A stretch of 64,000 nt of DNA from an uncultured Alistipes sp. (GTDB lineage Bacteria > Bacteroidota > Bacteroidia > Bacteroidales > Rikenellaceae). Where the stretch lies: positions 1 to 64,000 of the forward strand of contig CANASP010000007.1 in assembly GCA_947364365.1 (NCBI GenBank), written 5' to 3'. The notes beneath the pieces were generated by a model. It was not told where the DNA came from, ran no database searches, and saw nothing but the letters and a program-made list of their open reading frames with translations. Every line of letters starts with the position of its first letter. Position 1 is the stretch's first letter. Positions 7,592 through 56,368 of this stretch are shown piece by piece. Both the position numbers and the translations under genes were made by a program.

Positions 7592-7624
7592 GTTTGAAAT
7601 CGGTTCTTGTGTCCAACGAAAGCC

Positions 7625-7643
7625 GATCGTCGTTCCGACGATC
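7625..7643 (-). other. 5' leader hairpin of the GH92 transcript
   Basis: Perfect 8-bp inverted repeat (GATCGTCG, 3-base loop, CGACGATC) immediately downstream of the GH92 -7 box, so it would lie at or very near the mRNA 5' end. It may stabilise the transcript or act as an operator. Neither is shown. Confidence 0.5.
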
Positions 7644-7650
7644 AAAGGTA
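7643..7650 (-). promoter_or_regulatory. -7 element of GH92 promoter
   Basis: TACCTTTG on the minus strand matches TAnnTTTG, about 50 bases upstream of the GH92 start. No clear -33 TTTG is seen. Together with the terminator at 7836-7877 it suggests that the enzyme genes form a transcription unit separate from susCD. The remaining 7651-7835 holds nothing else I recognise. Confidence 0.55.
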
Positions 7651-7835
7651 GCTATTTCGGCGGAATATCCGGCCGAAAGCGGCGAGGCGTTTTCGCACTA
7701 CCAACGATTCGCTCCGGGGAACGAATCGGTCGCAATCGAAACGGCAGAGGCCGCACGGAGCGGAAAATCAACAACAAAAAAGCATCGCTTCGAACAGAAC
7801 GGAACCCCGATCGCAGACGAAATCCGGGGAAGATG

Positions 7836-7877
7836 AAAAATTTTTGCGAAGCCGGATACCCTTGCGAGTATCCGGCT
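7836..7877 (-). terminator. Intrinsic terminator after susD
   Basis: Perfect 10-bp inverted repeat (AGCCGGATAC 7850-7859, GTATCCGGCT 7868-7877). On the minus strand it is followed by an A/T run ending in TTTTT at 7836-7845. It lies 23 bases beyond the susD stop. Confidence 0.85.
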
Positions 7878-7900
7878 CAGCAAAAATTCAGATCAGATCA

Positions 7901-9589
7901 TCAGTTGGGCTGCTTCCACATGCCGCCCGCCTTCACGATCTCCTGCGAAGGATAGGGGAACACCAGGCAGCTCTCCTTCCAGGTACGGGTGGCGCCGTCG
8001 CCGACGGGCCAGATCTCCTTGACCTCGCACTTGGAGTTCGAGTCGTTGATATCCGCGGGCACGTTACCCAGCGTACGCTTGCCGAGGATCTTGGAGGTGG
8101 TGTATTCGTCCGAAAGACCCGTCAGACGCGACCAGCGCTTGAGGTCCATGAAGCGGTCGGTGAACTCGAATGCCAGCTCGCAGCGGCGCTCGTGCATCAC
8201 ATCCTCCATCGTGACCGAACCCTCGGTGTAGAGGTCGCCCAGACCGGCACGGCTCGTCAGACGGTTGAGCTCCTTGGCGGCACCCGACTTGCCCATCATC
8301 ACGAGCGCCTCGGCCTTGAAGAGGACCATCTCGGCGTGACGCAGCAGCGATACGCAGAGGTCGGTCGTCGGATAGTCGCCGTTGGTCGAGATGTAGGGGT
8401 TCGTGGCGGCCGTGGCACCTGCATCGAGGACACCGTCCTTGTAGACCTCGTTGCCATAGGTGTAGGGCTCCATGTACTTGGCGATCGAATAGCCCGACAG
8501 CACGGCGTCACCGCCGTTCTCCGTGTAATGGAAGTTCTGGTTGCCGAAGAAGGTGAAGGTATTGATCTCGGGCTTGTAGCCGATCAGGTTGAGCTGCTTG
8601 CGCTTGTCGCCCGCGTTCTTCTCGTACTCCATGTAGAGGTTGTGCGTGGGCTTGATCGAACCCCAGCCGTTGTAGTAACCCCAACCGGTGTTGCGCAGGC
8701 AGATACCCACGAACTCGCTGCCGCTCGGATTCGAGCCGCCGGTCGAGTGCACCGAGAAGATATACTCCTTCGAATAGTTGTTGGCGATCTTGAAGGGATC
8801 GGCGCAGTCGGCGAGCAGGTCGCGGTGGCCTTCGGTCTCGATCTTGTCCACCAGCGCGGGGATCTCCTCCCACTTCGACGCATCCCAGAAGGCCCAGTAT
8901 GCGTAGACCTTCACCATCAGCGCCCAGGCGGCAGCCTTGTGCGTGCGGCCGTAGTCGGCCTGCGTGTAGGTCTCGAAGAAGGGCAGACGCTCGGCTGCGT
9001 TCTTCAGGTCGTCGATAATCAGCTCGTAGTTCTTCACTACGCTCTCCTGCTGCTTGTAGATCTGGTTGTTCCAGCCGCCCTCGAAGCTCTCCCAGGGCTC
9101 GAACGGCACACCCAGCTGATCCGTACCGTGACGGTAGGCCACGTGGAAGTGGTAGAAGGCGCGCATGAAGTAAGCCTCGCCCAACACGCGCTTCTCGATC
9201 GGGGAGAGGTTCTCCTCGCCCTTGTCGAGCAGCGACTGGATCACCCACTGTGCGTTGGCCATATAGGTATAGAGGTTGTTCCAGGCATCGCGGATCCAGC
9301 TGTGCTCGGCGTTGAAGTTGAGCGACTCGAGGTTGAAGTCGCGCGACTTGGTGAAGACGATATCGTCGGCGGCACCCTGCTCCCAGAAGAGGTCGCGGCC
9401 CCACATGGCGTCGGTCGGACGGGCGATGCCCCAGTAAACGGCGTCGATGGCGTCGAGCGCATCCTTATCCGTCGCGAAGAAACCGTTCTGCGTCGGATAT
9501 CCCTCGGGCACCACGTCGAGGAAATCGCCGCAGGACATCGTCAACGATGCCGAGACGAGCGCGACCAGTGCAAATATCTTTCTTTTCAT
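7901..9589 (-). CDS. SusD/RagB family outer-membrane glycan-binding lipoprotein
   Basis: 562 residues. The signal peptide ends in the lipobox LTMSC (Cys20) followed by GDFLDVVPEG, the usual SusD N-terminus. The middle contains SusD-type helical blocks (AYFMRAFYHFHVAYRHG, HERRCELAFEFTDRFMDLKRW). It forms the surface lid of the SusC barrel and binds the oligosaccharide. It lies 25 bases after susC and is followed by a strong terminator. Ligand specificity cannot be read from sequence. The downstream GH92 and phosphoesterases suggest a mannose-containing ligand. Confidence 0.95.
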   Translation of the reverse strand: MKRKIFALVALVSASLTMSCGDFLDVVPEGYPTQNGFFATDKDALDAIDAVYWGIARPTDAMWGRDLFWEQGAADDIVFTKSRDFNLESLNFNAEHSWIRDAWNNLYTYMANAQWVIQSLLDKGEENLSPIEKRVLGEAYFMRAFYHFHVAYRHGTDQLGVPFEPWESFEGGWNNQIYKQQESVVKNYELIIDDLKNAAERLPFFETYTQADYGRTHKAAAWALMVKVYAYWAFWDASKWEEIPALVDKIETEGHRDLLADCADPFKIANNYSKEYIFSVHSTGGSNPSGSEFVGICLRNTGWGYYNGWGSIKPTHNLYMEYEKNAGDKRKQLNLIGYKPEINTFTFFGNQNFHYTENGGDAVLSGYSIAKYMEPYTYGNEVYKDGVLDAGATAATNPYISTNGDYPTTDLCVSLLRHAEMVLFKAEALVMMGKSGAAKELNRLTSRAGLGDLYTEGSVTMEDVMHERRCELAFEFTDRFMDLKRWSRLTGLSDEYTTSKILGKRTLGNVPADINDSNSKCEVKEIWPVGDGATRTWKESCLVFPYPSQEIVKAGGMWKQPN

Positions 9590-9614
9590 TGCTTTCGTAA
9601 GTTTTAGGTAAGAA

Positions 9615-12600
9615 TTAGTAAGTCAGTTTCACACCGAACGAGTAGACGCGCGGAATGGGATACTTGCCGCCGTCGAAGCCCCAGCCGCCGACCTCGGGAT
9701 CGATACCCGAGTAGTTGGTGATCGTGTAGAGGTTCTCAGCGCTGAAGTAAACCGACAGCGAGCTGTTGCGCTTGTCGAAGTGACGCGCGCGACGCAGCAG
9801 ACGCGACAAGTCGTAGGCAACCGAAATATTCTTGATACGCAGGTAGGAAGCATCCTCGAGGTACCAGTCCGACGAAGTCATGAAGTTGTTGTTGGGATCG
9901 GCCGAGTTGATGCGGGGGATGTTCGAGCCGCGGTTCTCGGGCGTCCAGGCGTTGAGGATCTCCACCGAACGGTTGAAGGACTTGTTGGCCTCGTTCAGGT
10001 AGGCGAACTTGGTGGCGTTGAAAGCCTTCGAACGGGCTGCGCCCTGAAGCATCATGCTGAACGAAAGATCCTTCCAGGTGAAGCCGGCCGACAGGGCGAA
10101 GGTCACCTTCGGCATGTAGCTGCCCATGAACTGGCGGTCGTCGTCGTCGATGTCGCCGTCGCCGTCGAAGTCGACGAACTTCAGGTCGCCGGCCTTGGCG
10201 TTGGGCTGGATGCGGTTGCCGTTCTTATCGACGTAAGCGGCAGCCTCCTCGTCGCTCTGGAAGATACCGTCGGTCTTCACGAGCCAGAACGAGTAGAGCG
10301 GCTCGCCCTCGGCCGAGCGGTAGAAGTTCTGCAGCTGCTGGAAGCGGCTGTTGTAGGCCCATACGGCCTTCGTACCGTCCTCGTTGGTCACGCCGATGTC
10401 CGAAACCCAGTTCTTGATGATGGCGAAGTTACCGCTGACGAAGTAGCTCCAGTTCTTGTTGACCTGCTCCTTCCACGAAGCCGAGAACTCGACGCCGCGG
10501 TTGCGGATCTCACCGAGGTTGACCGTCGGAGCGCCCAGACCCATTGCATTGGGCCAGCCCGAGGTCTGCGACTGGATCAGGTCGTAGGTGCGCTTCATGA
10601 AGAAGTCGGCCGACATCGACAGACGTCCCTTGAACATGTCGATATCGAGACCCAGGTCGGTCTGCTCCGACGTCTCCCACGTAAGGTTCATGTTGCGGGC
10701 CACGGGGTAAACGCGGTTACCGTTGGTCGAGGCGTTGATCTGGCCCGGACGGTTGCCCTGGCTGTAAACGCCCAGCGTGGCGGCGCCATAGGCGTAACCG
10801 ATCGAACCGAGGTTGCCGATACGGCCCCACGATGCACGCAGCTTGAGCAGCGACACGACGTCGTTCTTGGGGAAGAAGGGCTCGCTCGAAATCTTCCAGC
10901 CACCGGTTACCGAGGGGAAGTCGGCGCTCTTGCGGTTCTTGGGCAGACGGCCGGCATAGTCGCGGCGCCACGAAGCGGTGACGAAGTAGCGGTCGTCGAA
11001 GCTGTACGACAGACGGGCGACGAGGGCCACGTTGTTGTCGGGGCTGTCATAGCTGTCGGTGGGGTCGATATACTCCGAAGCCTGGCTGAAGTACTGGTAC
11101 ATCTCGCTCTCGTTCTCGAAGCCGGTAGCCTCGGCGTGGAACGAGCGGCCGCGCTGCTTGCTGGCGGTGGTACCCATCAGGGCGCCCACGGTGTGCTTGC
11201 CGAAGGTGTTGTCGTAGGTCAGCACGTTCTCGGTCTCCCAGTACCAGAAGTCGGAGGTGCTGTACTGCAAACGGTTCGTCAGATCGGGCTTACCCGGCTC
11301 GGTACGCATCGGATCGAAACGCTTGTAGAAGAGATCCTCGTTACGGTAGGTGAAGCGGCTGTTGAACTTCAGACCCGGGAGGATGTTGGCGATGGTGAGG
11401 TTGGTCGTCGACGAAATCTTCTGACGCTTGTTCAGCTCGGTGTGGCCGTTGAGGATGCGCAGCGGGCTGATCAGGTCGCCGAAGATACCCGAGAGGTTGG
11501 GATCGAGCTCCGAAACACCGCCGAACGAACCGTCATCGTAGTAGGGACGGGCGCTGCGGGGGAACATCATGGCATTGAGGATCACACCGTTCTCGCCGCT
11601 GTCGGTGTTCGTGCCGCGCTGCTTGTTGTTGGTGTACATGAAATCCTCCGAAATGGTGATCCAGTCGTTGATCTTGTAGCTGCCGTTGTAGCGCACGCTC
11701 GTGGTCTTGTTGAAGGTGCTCTGGAGCGTACCCTCCTCGTTGTTGTAGTTGAACGACACGCGGTTGGCGAAGCGCTCCGTACCGCCCTGCACCGACACCT
11801 GGTGACGCTGGTAGAGCGCCGTGCGGAAGATCTCGCCGATCCAGTCGGTCTGGGTGTGCAGCTCGGGGAGGTTCCACTCCGACGAGAGCGTACCGCCGTT
11901 GACGGCCAGCGACTGGCGACGTACCTCGCGCTGCTGCTCGAAGGTCAGCGACTGGGGCAGATTGGCGGCCTTGCGCACACCGTAGTTGCCTTCGTAGGTG
12001 ATCGAGGGCTCGCCTGCCTTGGCCTTCTTCGTCGTCACGAGGATAACGCCGGCGGCACCCGACTGGGCACCGTAGATGGCGGCCGATGCGGCATCCTTCA
12101 GCACGACGATCGACTCGATGTCGTTCATGTTGAGCGGAGCGCCGGGAACACCGTCGACAACCCACAGCACGCTCTCACCCGACTGCGATCCGACACCGCG
12201 GACCGTCACCGAGGGAGTCGCCGTGGGGTCGCCGCCTTCGGCGACGATCGTCACGCCCGGCATCTGACCCTGGAGCATGCTCTCGGTCGAGGTTACCGGA
12301 CGGGCCTTGTTGGTCTCCACGTTGTCGAGCACGCCCACCGAGGTCGAAAGGTCGGCCTTGCGGGCGGCGGCACCGAAACCGAGGACTACGACGTCCTCGA
12401 GCATCGTGGCATCCTCCTCGAGTACCACGTCGACATGGGTCGTAGCGGACGATACGGGAATCGTCTGGCTCTTATAGCCGATGAACGACACCTCCAGCAC
12501 GCCCTGCTTGCCGGGAACGACGACCTGGAAAGCACCCGACGCATCGGTCGAAGCGCCCGAGGTGGTCCCCTGGACGATCACGCTGGCTCCGATCACCGCG

Positions 12601-37828: not shown

Positions 37829-37856
37829 CGCGTCAATACTCCTCCTCGTTGAAGAA
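37829..37856. other. Left attachment site (direct repeat copy 1)
   Basis: 28 bases identical to 56341-56368, starting CGCGTCAATACTCC and ending GTTGAAGAA. Left copy lacks an attached gene. The stretch 37857-38042 that follows is AT-rich with one small inverted repeat (CATCG..CGATG) and no gene I can support. Confidence 0.88.
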
Positions 37857-38042
37857 ACGATTTACAATTGAATATCAGTGCATTATATCTCAGTCGATGA
37901 AATTTGTGCAAACAAACCGCATCGTCTGAGACAGACTGAGGCGATGGAGGAGGTGGTGGTGGACGAACAAATTAAAATACACCTTTATTTATCTTAATTT
38001 TAGTTTTTCTCCATAAAATTCGTTATTGAAATAATTATTGGC

Positions 38043-38050
38043 TAACTTTA
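38043..38050 (+). promoter_or_regulatory. -7-like element of the DUF262 operon
   Basis: TAACTTTA, 41 bases before the ATG. No clear -33 box. Confidence 0.4.
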
Positions 38051-38091
38051 AACTATGATTACAACCCCAAATACAATATTAACAAATAATT

Positions 38092-39297
38092 ATGAAGGCT
38101 AAAATCTATTACGGGGAATATACCCTTAGACATTGGATTGAGTTAATGCTGAAAGGTAATATAGTCCTTCCGCCGTATCAACGGAATTTTGTATGGACAG
38201 AAACAAAGGTTTTGGGTTTAATTAATGCATTCAACAATAAAGAATTTGTACCACCAATTACTATTGGCCTTTTTAAAAAAGATGGCGTTACACAAAATCT
38301 AATCTTAGATGGACAACAGCGCTTAACGACACTGTTGTTAGCATATTTAGACTTAATGCCAAACGCTGCAACATTTAAAGCAAAAAATGAAGAACTAACT
38401 ATGGGACATCTGGCTGAAGGTGATGAAATTGACGAATATGGTCGAGAATTAGATGATATACTGGATTGGACTTTTCAAAAATTGACCGAGAAAGGGAAAA
38501 GCAAATCTGAAATCGAATTAAAATTAATCCCGGGGAATTATAAGAATTTGGATAAAAAGTTGCCCGATAAATTTTTTGAAGAGCGATATTTAGGATTCTC
38601 ATACATTGTTCCTCAAGAGGACGAAACAATACAACAACAAAAATTTTATTCAACCGCCTTTCGAAATATCAATATTGGAGGACAAACATTATTGGCACAG
38701 GAAAGCCGGGAAGCACTCTATTATTTTAACAGTGAAATGCCGGATTTTTTCAATCCCAGTTTTTCCAAAGAAATCAAATTGAAAACAATGAGCTCTAATA
38801 TAGAAATACCTCTCGATTTCGTAAGGTACATGTCTATTCTTTCACAATACCGGCAAGATGGCAATGAAACTAAATTAGCTAAGGGATATCGTTCCAATAT
38901 GGAAGACTATTACGAACAATATATTTACTCCGTATTAGGCGAACTGACAATATCCATTTTCAAAGATTTCAATACCATTTTCCCTGATAAAAACTACCAA
39001 CCAAAATTGGAAAAACTTTCTGAAAGCATTAGATTATTAGACCTGTCAGCAAAATCTCCATTTTCATCAATAATTGATATGGATGTCTATTTGTTTGGAC
39101 TAATCTATCAAATTGTATTCGAATCAAAGAAGTTAAATCCAGAACATATTGATGATTTAAAAAGGGAACTATCTACACAAATAAGCGATTATAAGTCAGA
39201 TGATTCCCATAAAAGATCACCCAATGCTTTTAAATATATGCGTCCGCGTGTTGTCAATTCCATAAATATATATTCGCGTTATGTCATTGCAGAATAA
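38092..39297 (+). CDS. DUF262 (GmrSD N-terminal/ParB-like nuclease fold) protein
   Basis: 401 residues. Diagnostic DUF262 motifs: LPPYQRNFVW (about 26-35) and LILDGQQRLTTLLL (about 70-83), typical of the ParB/Srx-like nucleotide-binding fold found in GmrS and other phage-defence proteins. No HNH/DUF1524 nuclease domain is seen at the C-terminus, so it is not a full GmrSD. It overlaps the next gene by 17 bases, implying a two-gene unit. AT-rich, unlike the backbone. Likely role: NTP-dependent sensor or regulator for the HEPN partner (inference). Confidence 0.85.
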   Translation: MKAKIYYGEYTLRHWIELMLKGNIVLPPYQRNFVWTETKVLGLINAFNNKEFVPPITIGLFKKDGVTQNLILDGQQRLTTLLLAYLDLMPNAATFKAKNEELTMGHLAEGDEIDEYGRELDDILDWTFQKLTEKGKSKSEIELKLIPGNYKNLDKKLPDKFFEERYLGFSYIVPQEDETIQQQKFYSTAFRNINIGGQTLLAQESREALYYFNSEMPDFFNPSFSKEIKLKTMSSNIEIPLDFVRYMSILSQYRQDGNETKLAKGYRSNMEDYYEQYIYSVLGELTISIFKDFNTIFPDKNYQPKLEKLSESIRLLDLSAKSPFSSIIDMDVYLFGLIYQIVFESKKLNPEHIDDLKRELSTQISDYKSDDSHKRSPNAFKYMRPRVVNSINIYSRYVIAE

Positions 39298-40096
39298 CCA
39301 ATTGAAATTTATAGAAACCCCTATATCTATAATATTAAGAGAGGCTGTTGTTGCCAGTACTGCTATAGGAAACGGAATTGAAACCTATCCCGTTAACGAT
39401 TACATTTTGCATTCAATTTTTCTAAAAATGACTGGAGCTCAAGAACAAAAAATGAAATGCATCGTATGGGAATTGGCTTCTAACGATTACAACTATCGCT
39501 ATCTTCGATATAATCAGAAACCATATGGAGAATGCTCTTACTACGATGAAAAAAACAAGATTTACAGAGATTTATTAGACCAAATAACTAAAATCGATCC
39601 GGCCTTTCTTGTTGATACTTTTTTCGATAAAAATGCTATTTTGTCGGATATAGCCGCAGATCTTGACGATATATTCGAAAAAAGTAGTTTATCTCAAATT
39701 AGGTCGCGTGAGTATAACGAGTATAAGCGCATTTTTAAATCCTTGACTCCAGATTGTTTCATTGTTGGATCATTATCTGCAAACAATAAAAACGATGGAC
39801 GCAGAATATTTTCAACATGTGATAAATGCCATAAGTTTGATAAGAAAAGTAATGTTCGCAAATGTGATAATTTATTAAATCTACATGAAATATATGGTTT
39901 GCTCTATCGGCATCGAAATCGATGTGCCCATAACTCAACATCATATCAACAGAATTTACCCACATTCACGATGATGTCAAATTTGAAATATTGTTATGAA
40001 AACTATTTTATATATTTCGCTATTCTAGTATTGATAGACACTATATTTATAAATCTATTCAAACAACACCAGAACCTCATAGATCTAACTATTTAA
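39281..40096 (+). CDS. HEPN-motif protein paired with DUF262 (putative RNase effector)
   Basis: 271 residues, mostly helical. RNRCAHN at about 212-218 fits the catalytic HEPN R-x4-H motif, here with the frequent Asn after Arg. It is preceded by a helix, LHEIYGLLYRH. A CDKCHKF..RKC stretch (about 180-195) could bind metal. A hydrophobic stretch (about 242-260) follows the motif. HEPN proteins beside regulators are often toxin-like RNases. Family-level assignment beyond HEPN is uncertain. The gene ends 97 bases before the converging restriction operon. Confidence 0.6.
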   Translation: MSLQNNQLKFIETPISIILREAVVASTAIGNGIETYPVNDYILHSIFLKMTGAQEQKMKCIVWELASNDYNYRYLRYNQKPYGECSYYDEKNKIYRDLLDQITKIDPAFLVDTFFDKNAILSDIAADLDDIFEKSSLSQIRSREYNEYKRIFKSLTPDCFIVGSLSANNKNDGRRIFSTCDKCHKFDKKSNVRKCDNLLNLHEIYGLLYRHRNRCAHNSTSYQQNLPTFTMMSNLKYCYENYFIYFAILVLIDTIFINLFKQHQNLIDLTI

Positions 40097-40192
40097 TAAT
40101 CAGATGAAAATACAGCAAATAAGATCTCCGCTTATTATAAAACACGATGATATGGACTTCTTAAATTACCATTAATAAAAAAATTGATTGAA

Positions 40193-40888
40193 TTACATCA
40201 TGAATCGCTCTAACTTGTCTTTCCAACGCCGCCAGTCGGGCATTTCGGTTTCGAGCAGGGAAAAGAAGGCTGCGGTATGGTCGGGATGCAGCAGATGACA
40301 CATCTCATGCGTAATAACATACTCAATGCAGGGCCGAGGCACCTTGATGAGTTCCGTATTCAGAATAATTTTCCCTTTGGGAGTACAGCTGCCCCAGCGA
40401 TTTTCCATCTCCTGAACATAGAGTGAGGTTGGTGCAACTCCGTACCGTGCAAATCGAGAAATAATAGGCTCCGCATATTCGGCGAACTTGAGTTTGGCAT
40501 GTTCGCGGTACCAGGATTTCATCAATTCCCGGGCCTTGTCCGGAGAGGTACATACCACTTCGAAGCAGCGCCCTTTGTAACGGACGCTGTTGACCTTGCC
40601 AGCGGATACCCGGAGCAGAAACTGTTTTCCCAGGTAGTAATGCGACTCTCCGCAGACATACCGTTTTTCCGGACTCCGAACCCCAAAATCCTTGAAATAG
40701 GACTGCTGCCGAAGAATCCACGGCGCCCGTTTGTGGAGTTTCTGTTCGATAACCTCTTCCGGCGTCCCTTCCGGAGCCAGCAGGACAGCCTCACCGGATG
40801 GATATACCTTGATTCCGAGTGTTCGGCGGGCGGAAAAGAGCACGCTGTAGAGAATCGTCTCTTTCCCGTAGACGAATACCTGCTGCAT
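40193..40888 (-). CDS. YgjP-like (DUF45/M48-type) zinc metallopeptidase, restriction-operon companion
   Basis: 231 residues. Zinc motif THEMCHLLHPDHT (HExxH plus third His) lies near the C-terminus, preceded by ENRWGSCTPKGKIILN, the hallmark of YgjP/DUF45. The ATG at 40888 overlaps the hsdR stop as TGATG, so translation is coupled; an in-frame start 12 bases upstream is possible. YgjP-like proteins are recurrent neighbours of type I restriction genes; their task is unknown, but protease control of HsdR is plausible. Confidence 0.87.
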   Translation of the reverse strand: MQQVFVYGKETILYSVLFSARRTLGIKVYPSGEAVLLAPEGTPEEVIEQKLHKRAPWILRQQSYFKDFGVRSPEKRYVCGESHYYLGKQFLLRVSAGKVNSVRYKGRCFEVVCTSPDKARELMKSWYREHAKLKFAEYAEPIISRFARYGVAPTSLYVQEMENRWGSCTPKGKIILNTELIKVPRPCIEYVITHEMCHLLHPDHTAAFFSLLETEMPDWRRWKDKLERFMM

Positions 40889-43800
40889 CACCGAAACCAT
40901 TTTTGAGCCACATCGACCGCCCGGTCAATGATGGCATCCATATCATCGAAGGTCATCGACAGGTCATACTTGCGTTTGACCTCGTCAATCAGATAGTCCT
41001 CGATATCGAGCTTCATCATGCCGACCAACCTGTCCTTGAGCGGCCAGTCGACAATGAGCCTCCCATTCTCGAAGATGTGCTGACGAATGATAGCGTCAAT
41101 CCTGTTGGCCGTGTCAAGCGCAATTTGCGTCAGATTGAGCCCCTGTTCGGGCTTTATGACCACCTTGTAGACCTCCAGACTCAATCCGAAGTAGGCTCGC
41201 GCAGCGTTGTTGTCCGTCAGCACTTCGGGGATCTCGCTGTCGGTATGATTCAGCACCTTGTTCATCAGATCCATAGCCTGTGCCAGATACTCCGCTTCGT
41301 CAATTCTACCCTGTTCGTACTGCGAAATAGTCTCCTTAAGCATCTGCGAGAACTTTTTGTAGAAAGCAGGATCGGTATCCATATTCTCGGTAATGTACCT
41401 AGCTGTTCGCGAAGCAATTGTATCGGCCTTGGCCGCTTTCCCTGAGATCTTCTCCACCTCTTCGGCGAACCGCTCCTTATCGAAGATGTTCACCAGATCG
41501 GTGATGATCTGCACCTCACCACTCTCAATGTGCGCGTCAATTAGTTTCTGAATCTGCCCTTCGTATTGCTTGTAGTCCACTATGTCGGAGTAGCGCTCCT
41601 GCACGGCATTACGAAGCTTCATGAAGAGGGCCAAATCATTCTTGTACTGCTCGATAAGCTCCTGACATGTATTCTTATGAAAATCAATCGACGAAAGCGC
41701 TACCTTCAGCGTCCGGGCAAAGGCCCGCAGCTTTTCGTAGTAGAGCGTGCGCCGGTCCTCCTCGCGCAGGACATTGCCGAAGGCCTCGAAGTCGGTCGTG
41801 TTGCGCACCTCCTTGAAGAGGTCCCACAACTCGGCATGCTTCTGGGGCAGCTTGGCCACCTCCTCCGAGATGTCCGTATAGATTCCCTCCAAATCCTCCT
41901 TGTCGAAATCGGTGTAGAGCTCCAGCGCCGAATTGAGCGACCCCAATACGCCGTAATAGTCGATGATATACCCGAACTCCTTGTCTTCGCAGACGCGGTT
42001 GACGCGGGCAATGGCCTGCAGCAGCGTGTGGTCCTTCAACTTGCGGTCGAGATAGAGCACCGTGTTGCGGGGTTCGTCGAATCCCGTTAGGAGTTTGTCC
42101 ACGACGATGATAATCTCCGGCTTGTCGCTGTTCTTGAAGCGGTTGATGATGCTCGCCTCGTACTTTTTGGCCGTGCCATATTCATCCATCATGCGCTTCC
42201 AGAAGGCCACCTCCACGTTCGAGGTCTCGCCGAATGCTTCGTCTTCCCCCTCCCGAGTGTCGGGCGAGGTGATGAGCACCTCCGACGAGACGATGCCGAT
42301 TTCGTCGAGATACTGCTTGTAGAGAATTGCGATGCGCTTACGCGGAGCCACCAGCTGCGCCTTGAACTTCGGTCCCTGCCAGTTCTCCCGGAAATGCTGC
42401 GAAATGTCCCACGCAATGGCGTAGATGCGCTGCTGCGTCTGGTTGAGCTGGTCCGCACGGCTGAATTTCTTCTTCATGTCGGCCCGCTGGGCATCGCTCA
42501 TCCATCCGCAGATCTTGTCGAAATAGCGGTCGATCGTCTCCTCGTGTACTACCTGCGGCACCATACGCCCCTCGTACAACAGCGGTACGACGGCCTTGTC
42601 CGCCACGGCCTGATCCACCATGTAGACCGGCTGGATGATGCCGCCGAACTTCCGGGCCGTGTTCTTCTCCTTCTTCATCAACGGCGTGCCGGTCGTGGCG
42701 ATGAAGCAGGCATTCGGAAGCGTCTTCTCCATCTTGATGCCCATCTCGCCGTACTGGCTGCGGTGCCCCTCGTCAATCAGCACGAAGATGTTGGGGTCCG
42801 TCAACGGAGTGCGGATCCCGCGCACTGCCGTCTCGAACTTGTTGATGATCGTCGTGATGACGGCATCGCTCTTGCTGTTGAGCAGCTCGACGAGCTTACA
42901 CCCCGTCGTGGCGTTCTCGACGCGAATCTGACATTTGCGGAACGTCCCAGTAATCTGCCGGTCGAGATCCGTGCGGTCGGTCACGAGGATGATTTTCGGG
43001 TTGCTGATCCTCCTGTCGAGGATGATCGCCTGCGCCAACATTACCATTGTCAGCGACTTGCCACTTCCCTGCGTGTGCCAGATAACGCCGCCGCGCCGCC
43101 GCCCGTCCTCAATGCGGCAGATGCGTTGCATCGTCTGCCGTACGGCAAAATATTGCTGGTAACGCGCCACCTTCTTGATGCCGTCGTCGTAGAGCGTGAA
43201 ACCGTACATCAACTGCAACAACCGTTCGGGCCGACAGAGATTGTAAAGGTATTCGTCCTGTACCGACGGGGTAGCTGACTGCTTGTAGAGCTCCTCAAAG
43301 CTACGGCGCGCATAGCCAAACCGCTCCCCGAAGAGCTTGTCGTCCTGCAGCGGCTCGTTGACCACCCGCTCCAGCTCTTGTCGGTAGCGACATTCTTCAT
43401 CGCGGTCAGCAAACTGCTCGCGCCACCGCGCCCAGAACTTCTTGGGTGTGGCCGTCGTAGCATAACTGCCCTCCTGGCGGTTGATGGTCAACAGCAGCGT
43501 TGAGTAGAGGTATAACCAGCGGATACCGTCGGACTTCTGGTTACGGAGGTGCTGCGAAATGGCCTGTTCGATGGAGCCCTTCACGTCGGGACGCTTGCAC
43601 TCGATGACGCAGAGCGGGATGCCGTTCACGAAGAGAACGATGTCGGGCCGGTAGGTCTCAGTCATCCCCGTACGGCTGACGGCAAACTCCTCGGTGACGT
43701 GGAAGATGTTATTGCGAATGTCCTTCCAGTCGATGTACTGCATCACGAAACTCTTGCGATCGCCGTCGATGATCTGCTCAAGGGTCTTTCCGAAAGTAAG

Positions 43801-44100
43801 CAGGTCGTAGACCGTCTGCGAAGCCTCCATAAATCCTTCGTCCATCGGGATGTTGCGCAGAGCCTCGATTCCAGCTGTAATGTTCTGCTCGGAAAATACG
43901 GTGGTCCGCGTCGAGCTGACTTGCACGACATTGATTGAGGCAATCCGCTCACGCAAAATGGGTTCGAGCAGCACATTAGCGATACTCCCGCCACGCAGGG
44001 CCAGCGCCTCATCAGGTGTAAGGTATGTGTACCCCAGCTTTTCAAGCATCAATAGAGCAGGAATTTGGCTGATATGGTCTTCTTTGAAGGAAATAGACAT
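40888..44100 (-). CDS. hsdR: Type I restriction enzyme R subunit
   Basis: 1070 residues. N-terminal nuclease domain with RPDIVLFVNGIPLCVIECKRP (PD-ExK core, about 157-177). Superfamily 2 helicase motor: HTQGSGKSLTMVMLAQA (Walker A), FVLIDEGHRSQYG (DEAD-type box), ATTGTP and KLLTGFDEPRNTVLYLD. The C-terminal helical region contacts HsdM/HsdS. It translocates DNA and cleaves unmethylated targets. It seems intact and is moderately GC-rich, unlike the three AT-rich genes upstream. Confidence 0.96.
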   Translation of the reverse strand: MSISFKEDHISQIPALLMLEKLGYTYLTPDEALALRGGSIANVLLEPILRERIASINVVQVSSTRTTVFSEQNITAGIEALRNIPMDEGFMEASQTVYDLLTFGKTLEQIIDGDRKSFVMQYIDWKDIRNNIFHVTEEFAVSRTGMTETYRPDIVLFVNGIPLCVIECKRPDVKGSIEQAISQHLRNQKSDGIRWLYLYSTLLLTINRQEGSYATTATPKKFWARWREQFADRDEECRYRQELERVVNEPLQDDKLFGERFGYARRSFEELYKQSATPSVQDEYLYNLCRPERLLQLMYGFTLYDDGIKKVARYQQYFAVRQTMQRICRIEDGRRRGGVIWHTQGSGKSLTMVMLAQAIILDRRISNPKIILVTDRTDLDRQITGTFRKCQIRVENATTGCKLVELLNSKSDAVITTIINKFETAVRGIRTPLTDPNIFVLIDEGHRSQYGEMGIKMEKTLPNACFIATTGTPLMKKEKNTARKFGGIIQPVYMVDQAVADKAVVPLLYEGRMVPQVVHEETIDRYFDKICGWMSDAQRADMKKKFSRADQLNQTQQRIYAIAWDISQHFRENWQGPKFKAQLVAPRKRIAILYKQYLDEIGIVSSEVLITSPDTREGEDEAFGETSNVEVAFWKRMMDEYGTAKKYEASIINRFKNSDKPEIIIVVDKLLTGFDEPRNTVLYLDRKLKDHTLLQAIARVNRVCEDKEFGYIIDYYGVLGSLNSALELYTDFDKEDLEGIYTDISEEVAKLPQKHAELWDLFKEVRNTTDFEAFGNVLREEDRRTLYYEKLRAFARTLKVALSSIDFHKNTCQELIEQYKNDLALFMKLRNAVQERYSDIVDYKQYEGQIQKLIDAHIESGEVQIITDLVNIFDKERFAEEVEKISGKAAKADTIASRTARYITENMDTDPAFYKKFSQMLKETISQYEQGRIDEAEYLAQAMDLMNKVLNHTDSEIPEVLTDNNAARAYFGLSLEVYKVVIKPEQGLNLTQIALDTANRIDAIIRQHIFENGRLIVDWPLKDRLVGMMKLDIEDYLIDEVKRKYDLSMTFDDMDAIIDRAVDVAQKWFR

Positions 44101-44109
44101 AGTTAATTC

Positions 44110-44826
44110 TTAAAATATCCACAACAATGGTATCCAAATAGATAACAATGCGATAGCAACTGATAATTTATTGATCCATGTCCCCTTTTGGCATATTGTG
44201 ATAATAGCGCCCAGAGTTAGAATCCCTCCAAATATAAAATATATGATCTTAATAGTTTGAACCAACCATCTTGGTAAGTAGTCTATAATTTTTGCATTTT
44301 CATTTATAATCTCTGGAGTATATTTCTGATAAATGATTTCTGAATCTTTTATATCCCTATCACTAATAATCAATTGTGGCAGTTCTTTACTCTCGACAAA
44401 AGCGATAAGTTCTATAAATTCTCCGGAACGCCATTGTTTGAAGCAAATCTGATTATTTAGAAGAAATGCTTCATTATTTGATTGAGTAATTGCTATGGAA
44501 TATATATGTTCTTGATTTTTGATAGTCAATGGAAGATTTTCACTCAATAGCTGTTTATTTTCGCCCATGCCTACAAGAGTCGCATCTCCAATGTTGCGAA
44601 TCACATATTGAATTTGCCAAAGATTTTGTACCGGAATAGTGTCCTTGTAAAAATATTGAATACGTAAATCATCCGTAGATGTCGATTCCGTTAATAATTG
44701 TTCCGACATCGTCTTGACTTCGAGAATAACATGCTCTTTATGAATATAAAAATATATAGTTACTATTCCTGCTGCAATCGCAACTAAAGTACCGATAGTT
44801 TTAATATATCTTATAAGAATCTCCAT
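44110..44826 (-). CDS. Hypothetical membrane protein inside the restriction operon
   Basis: 238 residues. One hydrophobic segment near the N-terminus (about 9-27) and two near the C-terminus (about 190-210 and 217-237) enclose a predicted soluble domain of about 160 residues with mixed alpha/beta character. No family recognised. Very AT-rich. It lies 4 bases after hsdS and 9 bases before hsdR, so it must be co-transcribed. Confidence 0.72.
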   Translation of the reverse strand: MEILIRYIKTIGTLVAIAAGIVTIYFYIHKEHVILEVKTMSEQLLTESTSTDDLRIQYFYKDTIPVQNLWQIQYVIRNIGDATLVGMGENKQLLSENLPLTIKNQEHIYSIAITQSNNEAFLLNNQICFKQWRSGEFIELIAFVESKELPQLIISDRDIKDSEIIYQKYTPEIINENAKIIDYLPRWLVQTIKIIYFIFGGILTLGAIITICQKGTWINKLSVAIALLSIWIPLLWIF

Positions 44827-44830
44827 AAAT

Positions 44831-46018
44831 CTAAATTATTACACGTTTCTTACCTGTTGGAAGTTGTTGCATCAGGCCGTGTTTCTGGCGGCGCAACTGT
44901 TTGATTTTCCCTTTTGCTAAATCAATCTCGCGGTCAGCTACAGTCAATACCTCCGCAATAGCGGTTTGCTCTTGATAGGCGGGAATCATGAATTTGAGAT
45001 TCCCAAGATCTTTAATTTGGATATTGGGCAATCCTGATCCTACTCGTAAGGACATGATATATTTCTCATTGTTTTTGAGTGCCTGATAGATGAATAGCTT
45101 GTTTATTCCATTCTTTGCTTCAATCGTATAACAATGTCCTCCACTCCAAAATGGTGTAGTCATAAAGTTTACGTAGCCACATGAATTACCGCCTTCGCTT
45201 ATAGTGATAGTATTTGCCTCTGCATTATATATGTCTAAATACCCGGAAGGAGTAACACCTCCATTTATGACAGGATATTTTGCGTTAGAGAACAATATGT
45301 CTTTGTTGACCTGCTCGCCTTTCTTTATTTTTGCTATTTTATTTATTTTTAGTTCTTCCCATGGTTTGGAAAATCCAGAGAGACGGAGTTTAGCGGCGAG
45401 GAGTCGCTGCATCAAGCCGCGTTTGCGCAGGACGAGTTTTTCAATCAGCCGCGCCTGCTTTTCAATCGCCTCATCCCACACGCCCAACACCTCCGCAATC
45501 TTCCTCTGCTCCACCAGGGGCGGAACCGCAATTTTTACTCTTTTCAAATCGCTGGTGCTAATACTGGCCTGATTGACAGCGGGCTTCGCTATTACTTGAG
45601 CCATATGCCGTATATATTCAGTTAGCAACGTATAATATAAATATTGCTTATCAAGGCAATCGTTGGCTCTAAGCAAAAGCAGGTTCATACCATGATAAAT
45701 TTCTTTATCACCTTTGTAATAAGCAACCTTCCCGATTTGAGAAAGACTATTTATGTGGCTATACAGGATGTCGCCTTTTTGCATTCTGAAGGTTTCATAT
45801 CCACTTTTATTGGGAATATATCCGACCTTCGCATAATTTATTTCTCCCGTAGAAATGGTTTCGATACGAGTAACAGGGGTTCCCTTGGTGATAGAGACAT
45901 CATATGTAAGACCATTAGCACATCTCGAAAGGAGATCGCCTAAAAATTTCACTTCCCACTCCTGCGGAATAATCCCCAGCGCCGTCACCTTATAGCCTTT
46001 CGGTATGTTATTCTTCAT
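44831..46018 (-). CDS. hsdS: Type I restriction enzyme specificity subunit (full-length)
   Basis: 395 residues from ATG 46018. Two target-recognition domains (about 10-160 and 210-345) are each followed by the conserved helical spacer: PLVEQRKIAEVLGVWDEAIE then KRGLMQRLLA, and YQEQTAIAEVLTVADREID then KHGLMQQL. It reads a bipartite DNA site for HsdM/HsdR. The start overlaps the TPR gene by 11 bases. The recognition-domain sequence is AT-rich while the central spacer is less so, suggesting domain replacement. Confidence 0.93.
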   Translation of the reverse strand: MKNNIPKGYKVTALGIIPQEWEVKFLGDLLSRCANGLTYDVSITKGTPVTRIETISTGEINYAKVGYIPNKSGYETFRMQKGDILYSHINSLSQIGKVAYYKGDKEIYHGMNLLLLRANDCLDKQYLYYTLLTEYIRHMAQVIAKPAVNQASISTSDLKRVKIAVPPLVEQRKIAEVLGVWDEAIEKQARLIEKLVLRKRGLMQRLLAAKLRLSGFSKPWEELKINKIAKIKKGEQVNKDILFSNAKYPVINGGVTPSGYLDIYNAEANTITISEGGNSCGYVNFMTTPFWSGGHCYTIEAKNGINKLFIYQALKNNEKYIMSLRVGSGLPNIQIKDLGNLKFMIPAYQEQTAIAEVLTVADREIDLAKGKIKQLRRQKHGLMQQLPTGKKRVII

Positions 46019-47360
46019 CTGTGAATTCATTAGATTTGCAGGTATTTTGCTTGCGGAATGTCTCCAAATCGGCAAAACGAAGTCGTTTATAATGCTCTTT
46101 GTGTTCAGAGTCGGACGTATTTTCTATTATTTTTTGATAAAGCGTGGCTCTATTCTCATATAACACCCAAAGATTGGGATCTAAAGCTATAGCTTTATTT
46201 AAATCATTTAATGCAGATTTGTAATAATCTGACCCCATTGCCATATATATACAAGCTCGCGTATCAAGTGCACTAGCTTTGGCCGAATTATTATCATTGT
46301 CCATGGATAAAGACTCATTTGCATCTGCCAATGCTATTTCAAGTTTGCCTAATTTATAATATGCGTAAGCTCTATTGTTATAATTTATAGCCGTTAGTTG
46401 ATCATTTTTTGCTATGATATTAAATATATCTATCAAATTCTGCCATTGTTCACTTTCTAAATACACAGAAGACAAGGTGCAATACCCTCGTATATCTTGA
46501 GGATCTTTATGTATCGCTTCCTTACAATATTTGATAGCTTTTGCGTAATCCTTTTGTTCTAAATAGATTAATCCGATTATAGCGTAACCATTGGGAGAGT
46601 CCGGTTTTAATTTTATATATTGTTCTGCATCTTGCATGGCAAGCTGATATTGTTTAGTATCGGAATATGCAATACTTCGATTGTTTAGGGCATCTATATC
46701 TTGTGGATCTAATTTTAAAATTCTAGAGTATAGCTCAATAGCTCTATTGCTATCTTTTTCTTTTAAAGCTTCAGAGAAGAGTCTACTAATCATCGCACTA
46801 AGCTGAGATTTACGAGCATTATTTTCGGAAGCTTCGCTCCTTTTCTGAAGAGTGGTAACTTGTTTCTTGATATTAGTTATGTCTGACAATTGTGAATCTA
46901 TTATTTCTCGATCTTTATTGATTTGTTTGGCTACATCGTCAATTCTATTTTGGGTACTCATTATTCCAGTGTTGATATTATCAATATTATGGTTTAGATC
47001 CCTAACGGCATCTAATGCTTTTTCCGACTTTTTCTTTGCTTGGTGATTTAATAAAATAGGAGTGGCAACGCCAAAAGCTCCCACAATTAAGGATATAATT
47101 CCAAGGGCCCAGTTGCGGGTCTCGTGCGAATCTGTCAAAAAGATCATGTAATCTTCGCGGGTCTCTGCCATGCGAGCGGAGAGCATCTCCTGCGTCTCTG
47201 TAATTGTTTGGATATTACGAGATAAGGCATCAATTACAGAGGCCAATGAATCCACTTCCTCAGAGAGTTTCGTAGTCTCACCGGGTCGAGTCTTTGTTGT
47301 AGCAGCTTCCGATACCATTGTGATACACAGAGCCAATATAAGAATTAAAATGTTCTTCAT
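46008..47360 (-). CDS. TPR-repeat membrane protein inserted in the restriction operon
   Basis: 450 residues. N-terminal signal-like segment (1-19), short coiled region, transmembrane segment (about 83-104, WALGIISLIVGAFGVATPILL), long coiled coil (about 110-195), then at least five tetratricopeptide-like repeats (about 195-425, e.g. NRAIELYSRILKLDPQDIDA and YAKAIKYCKEAIHKDPQDIRG). It would present a cytoplasmic or periplasmic TPR scaffold at the membrane. It is not a normal restriction component. Strongly AT-rich, 10 bases after hsdM and overlapping hsdS. Confidence 0.82.
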   Translation of the reverse strand: MKNILILILALCITMVSEAATTKTRPGETTKLSEEVDSLASVIDALSRNIQTITETQEMLSARMAETREDYMIFLTDSHETRNWALGIISLIVGAFGVATPILLNHQAKKKSEKALDAVRDLNHNIDNINTGIMSTQNRIDDVAKQINKDREIIDSQLSDITNIKKQVTTLQKRSEASENNARKSQLSAMISRLFSEALKEKDSNRAIELYSRILKLDPQDIDALNNRSIAYSDTKQYQLAMQDAEQYIKLKPDSPNGYAIIGLIYLEQKDYAKAIKYCKEAIHKDPQDIRGYCTLSSVYLESEQWQNLIDIFNIIAKNDQLTAINYNNRAYAYYKLGKLEIALADANESLSMDNDNNSAKASALDTRACIYMAMGSDYYKSALNDLNKAIALDPNLWVLYENRATLYQKIIENTSDSEHKEHYKRLRFADLETFRKQNTCKSNEFTDEE

Positions 47361-54760: not shown

Positions 54761-56115
54761 TTATATAGTCAGGTTACTTAATTCTCCGCTCAGTTTTGCA
54801 ATCTCCGCCGACAGCGTTTCAGGTAAGAACCTGTCATAGACCTTTTCAGTAACCTCCGTACTTCCATGACCGAGCAGACGGCTGACCACAGACATAGACA
54901 AGCCTTTATTCAACGCGAAGACGGCAAATGTATGCCGCACCACATGCATTGACAGATTGAATGGCAATCCGACCTGTTCTCCTACAACCGCCAGCGACTG
55001 ATTGATGCATTTTGTTGCATTATTGCGGGACTTGTACAGTGCCTTTGCATCGTCAAGATCCAGATCATTCTTTACTAAGTTGAATACATATCAGGATCCT
55101 GCCCGTTCCTTCTGCCACCGGTGCAGAATATTCAAGGCAGGTTTTGTAAGAGGTATCACATGCCGCTTGTTCGTCTTAATCATGATCTTCCTCAGTTCCT
55201 TCTTCTCGAAATTGACATGGCCCCACTGCAATGTCATCACATCGACAACACGGAGTCCGCAGGCATGGAAGGCAAAGAAAAACATTTCCAAAAACTCCTT
55301 GCGGCGCGATTCGGTGCAGGCATGGTAATATTCCAGTAACGCAGACATTTGTCCCTTTGAAAGGTACTTGCCGTCAAATTCGTTGTCCTCGTCCGCAAAA
55401 GATATCTTTGAGGCTATACGCATATCCTGAATCCGCGCATTGACGGGCATGGTCTATCATTTTCATTTCGGAAGCATAAGCACATGCCTTCAAAATCGGA
55501 GTCAAAGCATGGTTAATTGTTGCATCGCTGTTCTGTTTTATCTCGCGGCGCCACTTGATGTATTCGTCAATCAGTTCAATCGATATTTCACCTACATAGA
55601 TACTGTCCGGCTTGTATGTGCCGTTCTTCGTTGCACGGAGAAAAATACGGAAGATATTCATGCCGCTCTTTCCGTTCTCATAGCAGCTACGGCCAATCCT
55701 GTTTCGGGAATAGTCCGATTCGAGCCGATCTAAAACAAACTCAATAAAATCCTTCCCTTTGTCCTCCCGCGTAAGTGGTTTGTTGGCCAAAAAGTCAACG
55801 ATTACCTATACTGTAATCTGATCGGGATGCTTCTCCTGATATTCGGCCAGCAGGCCATCAATCTTGTCTGCACGGGCAATCAGCAGGCTGTTAATGCGGT
55901 TGACCTCCGAACCATAGCTCGCCCTCACGCCTCCGCGTCCCTTGTTGGCTTCTCGTTCCAGTCGCCCAGCCGGACAAAGATATCCAGCCCTTGCGTATCA
56001 CCTGTCGGATCCAGGTATATTCAAGTTGGACAAGATACTGTTTGGCAGGATCGATCTCACCCCGGATATGCAGGCGATAGCGTCCCAATGGATATAGTCG
56101 TTTAGGCCTTCCCAT
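54761..56115 (-). pseudogene. Tyrosine recombinase (integrase) of the element, broken by stops and frameshifts
   Basis: Reassembled from ATG 56115 (MGRPKRLYPLGRYRLHIRGE). Frameshifts occur near 56000 and 55940, TAG near 55810 (before VIVDFLANKPLTRED), a frameshift near 55450 and TGA at 55091-55093. Catalytic parts are still readable: CGLRVVDVMTLQW (first Arg), MHVVRHTFAVFAL (HxxR), LLGHGSTEVTEKVYDRFLP (His and Tyr). It would have integrated the element at the 28-bp site, 225 bases away. At least five lesions make it inactive. Confidence 0.85.
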
Positions 56116-56340: not shown

Positions 56341-56368
56341 CGCGTCAATACTCCTCCTCGTTGAAGAA
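56341..56368. other. Right attachment site (direct repeat copy 2)
   Basis: Identical to 37829-37856. On the minus strand it encodes the last residues FNEEEY and stop of the small acidic protein, so integration preserved the gene. Confidence 0.88.

Follow-up and report, generated by a model that had tools for sequence, protein, structure and literature searches.

A DUF262 gene overlapping a HEPN-like gene in an Alistipes genomic island: a candidate two-gene anti-phage system

According to the available portions of PMC10952713, GmrSD, BrxU and SspE carry a DUF262 domain with a DGQQR motif, which makes up the NTP pocket in GmrSD and SspE, together with a DUF1524 domain, and Menshen consists of a DUF262 protein without DUF1524 and a separate OLD nuclease gene. 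The anti-phage system PD-T4-2 is listed in the same source under both DUF262 and the HEPN family PF18735, and it confers protection against T4 on E. coli, both in its native strain and in K-12 (PMC9519451, Vassallo et al. 2022). PD-T4-2 appears to comprise two genes, judging from the PADLOC model name PD-T4-2_A, and the available text of PMC10952713 and PMC9519451 gives no mechanism for it. In the accessible part of a survey of the HEPN superfamily (PMC3710099, Anantharaman et al. 2013), the MAE_28990 family is described as being 'in operon with a ParB nuclease and DNA methylase genes', and RiboL-PSP-HEPN as being in 'operon with ParB'. This 'ParB' is read here as DUF262, on the basis of the entry 'ParB (DUF262)' in that source and of the loci described below. 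The combination of DUF262 with HEPN is thus already known as a kind, both from PD-T4-2 and from the 'ParB' operons tabulated in 2013 (PMC10952713, PMC9519451, PMC3710099).

The pair described here lies in a stretch of 64,000 nucleotides from an uncultured Alistipes sp. (contig CANASP010000007.1), hereafter the window. The DUF262 (GmrSD_N) gene (38092..39297) encodes a protein of 401 aa, and the HEPN-like gene (39281..40096), also on the plus strand, one of 271 aa, the two open reading frames sharing 17 bases (39281..39297). The GmrSD_N domain (DUF262, PF03235) was matched by Pfam over residues 22-210 of the first protein with an E-value of 9.4e-20, and this protein contains PPYQR at residues 27-31 (38170..38184, plus strand) and DGQQR at residues 73-77 (38308..38322, plus strand), with no Pfam match to DUF1524. 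The second protein contains R212-N-R-C-A-H217 (39914..39931, plus strand), an R-x4-H motif of the HEPN type, and four cysteines, C159, C180, C183 and C195 (39755..39865, plus strand). The preliminary description, made from the sequence alone, had read the locus as a DUF262 protein with PPYQR and DGQQR but without DUF1524, overlapping by 17 bases a second protein that bears RNRCAH, and this gene anatomy proved correct.

The 271-aa protein has zero matches in Pfam at an E-value of 1 and zero in PADLOC, and neither protein of the pair has a match among NCBIfam families or PDB sequences. For the DUF262 protein, the best PADLOC match is NsnA (39.5 bits), which is presumably the DUF262 protein of Menshen, and PD-T4-2_A is found among several lower ones. 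The window pair resembles Menshen in that a DUF262 protein without DUF1524 is accompanied by a separate gene, here a proposed one for the effector (PMC10952713), but no OLD/AAA gene adjoins it (Pfam). Likewise, PD-T4-2 and the window pair both unite a DUF262 without DUF1524 with a HEPN or HEPN-like protein (PMC10952713), but the window DUF262 reaches only 23.4 bits over positions 54-109 of the 363 in the PD-T4-2_A model.

The pair has a G+C content of 32-33 percent, as against 61-71 percent in the chromosome to the left and 59-69 percent to the right of the island in which it lies. A perfect, attachment-like direct repeat of 28 bases was found at the left end of this island (37829..37856), with its second copy at the right end (56341..56368). 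The DNA that the window has in common with two related Bacteroidales genomes, L033 and L034 (L numbers denote loci outside the window), starts at 37835-37837, by the left repeat. In L034 it covers window positions 37837-44094 at 92 percent, through the restriction gene, and in L033 positions 37835-40925 at 94 percent, through the YgjP-like gene, the genes differing beyond. Since the shared DNA starts by the left repeat, the pair is the leftmost cargo of an island of 18.5 kb. The genes next to it in the window encode a methyltransferase, a YgjP-like protein and components of type I restriction (Pfam). Pfam, G+C content and the repeats confirm the earlier placement of the pair among the cargo of an integrated element, next to a type I restriction system. 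Two minus-strand open reading frames in two frames (55094-55790), near the right copy of the repeat and with no library match, resemble a tyrosine recombinase in pieces when read by eye. In the type I system, R and S are separated by the gene of a small protein with a weak match to a 2TM effector (44110-44826, E 0.022), and S and M by that of a TPR protein (46008-47360).

A genome collection (described as covering 84,980 species) was scanned with a two-row alignment (A1); 89 stretches matched, 26 of which encode a relative, and a viral collection added one more (L002). In all 27 relatives (26 genome contigs and one viral contig), the gene immediately upstream, in the same orientation, has a DUF262 match, and the two genes overlap or sit within 2 bases of each other when the nearest ATG is taken as the start, so the predicted conservation of the pairing was borne out and goes beyond what chance would give. 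At two contig ends, the last 58 (L041) and 28 (L057) residues of DUF262 are what is visible. In L058, an intact DUF262 gene stands beside a HEPN open reading frame that ends at 92 aa, before the motif, and in L002 the DUF262 open reading frame lacks its first residues and follows the end of an IS1-type transposase, as read by eye.

Judged by the titles of their records, the relatives belong mostly to Bacteroidota, and some were found in Lentisphaerae (L036), a cyanobacterium (L042), Clostridia (L049) and Haemophilus (L053). The family is rare, because the window's own genome is the only one with the HEPN protein among the genomes sampled, both in the class (1 of 395) and, by profile search, in the phylum (1 of 247). 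Viral contigs hold one window-type pair on a single contig (L002, which is the same as L059) and three weak DUF262 relatives (L060-L062). In the plasmid collection, no relative was found with the window protein as query, and the L035 protein matched a single remnant from Fusobacterium (L091); the same query gave no match in the phage collection at an E-value of 0.001. This remnant (L091:4001-4207, Fusobacterium vincentii) spans 69 residues of HEPN-like sequence and is probably a decayed copy; no DUF262 gene was recognised by eye among the six open reading frames of at least 120 aa around it. A further DUF262 protein, in L004, is 53 percent identical over its first 135 residues, and there the contig end cuts off the position of the partner.

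Conservation was assessed in an alignment of the HEPN-like proteins (A3, 25 rows from 28 sequences, leaving out the near copies L033 and L056 as well as the truncated L058) and in one of the DUF262 proteins (A4, 23 rows, leaving out the near copies L033, L051 and L056 and the contig ends L041 and L057). R212, N213, A216, H217 and N218 are invariant in all 25 rows of A3, as are Q54-E55-Q56-K57, and every row contains the R-x4-6-H pattern by which the HEPN superfamily is defined. On the DUF262 side, PxYQR, DGQ[QK]R and a match to GmrSD_N are each found in 23 of 23 rows. The cysteines behave differently: the CxxC..C stretch singled out in the preliminary description is present in the window (C180-x2-C183...C195, plus C159), but CxxC is missing from 18 of the 25 rows and all four cysteines occur together in seven. 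A defining zinc site is thus ruled out, and the four-cysteine insert looks, from the alignment, like an optional feature, likely a zinc knuckle. Compared with the two nearest copies (L033 and L034), dN/dS is 0.25-0.27 for the DUF262 gene and 0.31-0.33 for the HEPN-like gene, and both genes are under purifying selection. The distances in the two proteins correlate as well (Mantel r 0.67 over 21 loci, a value reached in 0 of 20000 permutations), a correlation that common descent alone would also yield.

The two genes probably make up an anti-phage system on an integrated island, in which a DUF262 sensor holds back and then releases a HEPN RNase. The DUF262 protein, as sensor and NTPase, would bind an NTP in the DGQQR pocket, recognise phage DNA (perhaps with modified bases), a nucleotide state or another sign of infection, and keep the HEPN protein in check within a complex made by translational coupling. 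On triggering, the effector would act as a HEPN dimer and cut RNA (tRNA, mRNA or rRNA) by means of R212 and H217, which would stop the infected cell or the phage. What goes beyond gene anatomy here, namely the HEPN fold, the RNA target, the sensing step, the restraint of one protein by the other and the abortive outcome, is inferred by analogy with GmrSD, SspE and PD-T4-2. Of the original idea of a sensor/effector pair acting by RNA cleavage, the conserved association of a sensor-like with an effector-like protein stands (27 of 27), and RNA cleavage is retained as a presumed activity. The anti-phage reading draws on the strict pairing, the correlated divergence of the two proteins, the invariant R and H, the weak HEPN matches, the other DUF262-HEPN pairs and the precedent of PD-T4-2, and it is weakened by the low hhalign probabilities given below, the fact that the window HEPN-like protein itself matches none of the libraries scanned, the truncation in L058, the unpaired remnant in L091 and the housekeeping neighbours of some relatives.

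The overlap of the genes, with the DUF262 gene first, and the location of the pair right at one end of a mobile island would also suit a simple toxin-antitoxin module serving to stabilise that island, with HEPN as a growth-stopping RNase, DUF262 as its antitoxin and no dedicated sensing of phages. Antitoxins are usually small and often DNA-binding, unlike a DUF262 protein of 401 aa with a putative NTP pocket conserved in 23 of 23 sequences, and such a module is considered unlikely. HEPN toxins are indeed known in two-gene toxin-antitoxin systems (PMC3710099, in its accessible part), but PD-T4-2, which combines the same two domains and has been tested, serves in defence (PMC10952713, PMC9519451). 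The toxin-antitoxin and defence readings overlap in any case, as some toxin-antitoxin systems also defend.

The relationships of the DUF262 proteins bear on a second alternative, a split DNA-restriction system of the kind of GmrS with GmrD, whose second protein would be DNA-acting or structural and no RNase. A tree was built from 49 domains (49 of 57 rows used), with the window clade thinned from 19 to 11 rows; 13 of the 69 hits were left out for want of a PxYQ anchor, most of them long GmrSD-like proteins, and also L049, L052 and L081. The window-type DUF262 proteins form one clade (100/100) on a long stem, and this clade joins the long GmrSD-like proteins, at 87/96, which is below the mark for firm support, and not the other HEPN partners. 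A single clade for all HEPN-partnered DUF262 proteins is weakly rejected (p-AU 0.043), the group having been named after the tree was seen, and a group made of the window type and the MAE_28990 partners is compatible with the data (p-AU 0.33); the profiles of these two types align with 98 percent probability over 171 columns. A split restriction system would be in keeping with this placement and with the fact that DUF262 is the N-terminal domain of GmrSD. However, the window family resembles GmrSD, BrxU and SspE in its DGQQR-bearing DUF262 domain and lacks the DUF1524 that these carry (PMC10952713, in the portions available): no HNH/DUF1524 is present, GmrSD_C matches 0 of the 23 rows of A4 at an E-value of 0.1, and a DHxxP-type motif is absent from all 23. 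Moreover, the second protein has the invariant R-x4-H and no match to a nuclease family in Pfam, PADLOC or NCBIfam, and a split restriction system is accordingly regarded as improbable.

The anti-phage reading given above supposes that the second protein is a HEPN RNase. Its family was scanned, as the 25 members of A3, against Pfam and PADLOC at an E-value limit of 10. PADLOC AbiD matches 11 of the 25 (best 2.8e-5) and, at an E-value of 1, three of ten rescanned members (L046, L050 and L055), each time over the motif region. In Pfam, HEPN_MAE_28990 (PF18737) weakly matches two members (best 0.0011) and Abi_2 three (best 0.096), in both cases below the Pfam cut-off, and HEPN_RiboL-PSP (PF18735) one at 0.066. 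The window protein itself has no PF18735 match, which is a difference from PD-T4-2. Sixteen further Pfam families each match one or two of the 25 members and are mostly unrelated.

Profile comparison with hhalign, controlled by 30 column-shuffled copies of the HEPN-like profile, scored the family at 33.7 against Abi_2 (probability 30 percent, shuffled maximum 21.0), 29.8 against MAE_28990 (13 percent, 18.0) and 20.6 against RiboL-PSP (1.1 percent, 18.8). On the same scale, Abi_2 scores 31.5 against MAE_28990 and RiboL-PSP 26.2 against Abi_2, so that the distance of the window family from Abi_2 and from MAE_28990 is similar to that between those two. RiboL-PSP and MAE_28990 score 158.6 against one another (99.5 percent), and by these profiles the window family falls outside their close group. 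Abi_2 (AbiD/AbiF) is the best HEPN profile match, and RNxCAH is found in most of the ten Abi_2 sequences used, but the window-type members stay below its curated cut-off and a DUF262 neighbour was found at 0 of 12 Abi_2 loci. The invariant motif and the weak profile matches thus lend support to the HEPN assignment, short of proof. In a third alternative, the HEPN-like protein would bind without catalysis, like the members of inactive HEPN families, and DUF262 would be the effector, acting for instance by burning NTP. This is highly improbable, since the catalytic R and H are invariant in 25 of 25 rows, which is not expected after loss of catalysis, even though NTP hydrolysis or a response to NTPs is described for the DUF262 domains of SspE and BrxU (PMC10952713, available portions).

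Other DUF262-HEPN pairs were found in the same phylum. The family PF18737 matches 6 of 247 genomes at seven loci, with 0 matches in the window's own genome, and a DUF262 open reading frame lies upstream at 7 of 7, a count that is partly circular, as the DUF262 profile used for it holds six of the seven partners, although six of the seven are also found by PD-T4-2_A. In four of these pairs the genes share 4-8 bases, in two they lie no more than 2 bases apart, and in one (L067) a gap of about 280 separates them. Of 16 RiboL-PSP loci, nine of them over the Pfam cut-off, three have a DUF262 neighbour, L104 and L107 being the same places as the MAE_28990 loci L064 and L068. Downstream of 8 out of 13 DUF262 genes chosen from the DUF262 searches and L039, there is a gene with an R-x4-H motif, and six DUF262 partners reach the cut-off of PF18735 (L006, L007, L008, L014, L021 and the second pair of L039). 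Five of these loci (L006, L007, L008, L014 and L021) consist of a DUF262 gene and a RiboL-PSP-HEPN of 150-190 aa, and are compact pairs of the PD-T4-2 kind. The PADLOC PD-T4-2_A model matches 35 of 198 genomes of the phylum and nothing in the window's own genome at an E-value of 0.001; the HEPN partners of the PD-T4-2_A-like DUF262 proteins match PADLOC PD-T4-2 models in 0 of 7 cases at an E-value of 0.01, a count that may reflect the lack of a partner model in PADLOC. The MAE_28990 and RiboL-PSP operons thus share with the window the order DUF262 then HEPN, but they contain other HEPN families, for which the window HEPN-like protein is below the cut-off or without match, and their DUF262 proteins form clades separate from that of the window.

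The genes around the relatives were surveyed in 193 open reading frames of at least 90 aa, 111 of which, each of at least 105 aa, are no more than 2.5 kb away. These 111 matched 308 PADLOC models at 1e-10, and among the 25 of the 308 that were listed are GajA, GajB, PtuA, a type I specificity subunit, AriA, Old and NsnB, as well as the candidate families PDC-S13 and PDC-S05, each of those named here being found in 2 to 4 members. PtuA is encoded by the gene next to the L002 pair. In two Prevotella records that are near copies (L054 and L056), the pair adjoins GajA and GajB, most likely a Gabija system, on the basis of these PADLOC matches and of a Pfam AAA_15 match with an OLD-like TOPRIM in L054. 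Pfam searches of ten selected flanks also found a TIR protein (L046), an SMC-type ATPase (L038) and an N6-methylase/specificity fusion (L039). On the other hand, some pairs sit among housekeeping genes, for example L053, as read by eye. The expectation that such pairs lie in defence islands therefore holds in part: some relatives are near Gabija, Septu, TIR or restriction genes and others are among housekeeping genes, in a survey of the flanks of the relatives alone, with no matched control set.

In 4 of the 27 loci, a Bro-N protein is encoded next downstream on the same strand as the pair, by Pfam in L035:6931-7848, L044:2628-3497 and L047:7027-7896, and by 89 percent identity to the L047 protein over 105 residues in L057:1368-1694. 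These proteins are presumably DinD-like, and they are possibly a third component or a habitual neighbour. Two loci combine different forms of DUF262 systems. L039 contains a second, different DUF262-HEPN pair (L039:5591-7058, GmrSD_N 2.6e-30 and HEPN_RiboL-PSP 2e-17), on the opposite strand some 370 bases past the window-type pair and beside a methylase/specificity protein (7249-10416). In L034, a GmrSD with both domains (L034:2462-4270, GmrSD_N 1e-34 and GmrSD_C 3e-13) lies on the opposite strand, some 540 bases upstream of the pair, and thus the DNase and HEPN forms of DUF262 systems are adjacent there.

Within the known kind of DUF262-HEPN combination, this branch appears to be new. It is set apart because its HEPN-like protein is unnamed in Pfam, PADLOC and NCBIfam, its matches point to Abi_2/AbiD and MAE_28990, and its DUF262 proteins form a clade of their own; no description of it was found in the accessible text of the literature on DUF262 with HEPN. 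Such libraries would miss the pair, as its HEPN protein is unnamed in them, and yet it occurs in Bacteroidota, Lentisphaerae, cyanobacteria, Clostridia and Haemophilus. The pair enlarges the range of effectors associated with DUF262. With two genes in 2 kb, it also offers a compact case for asking what DUF262 senses and by what route a domain of DNA restriction was joined by a likely RNase. A natural comparison is provided by the four-cysteine insert, which only some members have. More tentatively, the pair may be an unnamed defence system that was assembled apart from PD-T4-2, from a GmrSD-derived DUF262 sensor and an Abi_2-like HEPN RNase effector. If this is true, DUF262 would be a general infection sensor that has repeatedly been fitted with DUF1524 DNases, OLD nucleases and several families of HEPN RNases.
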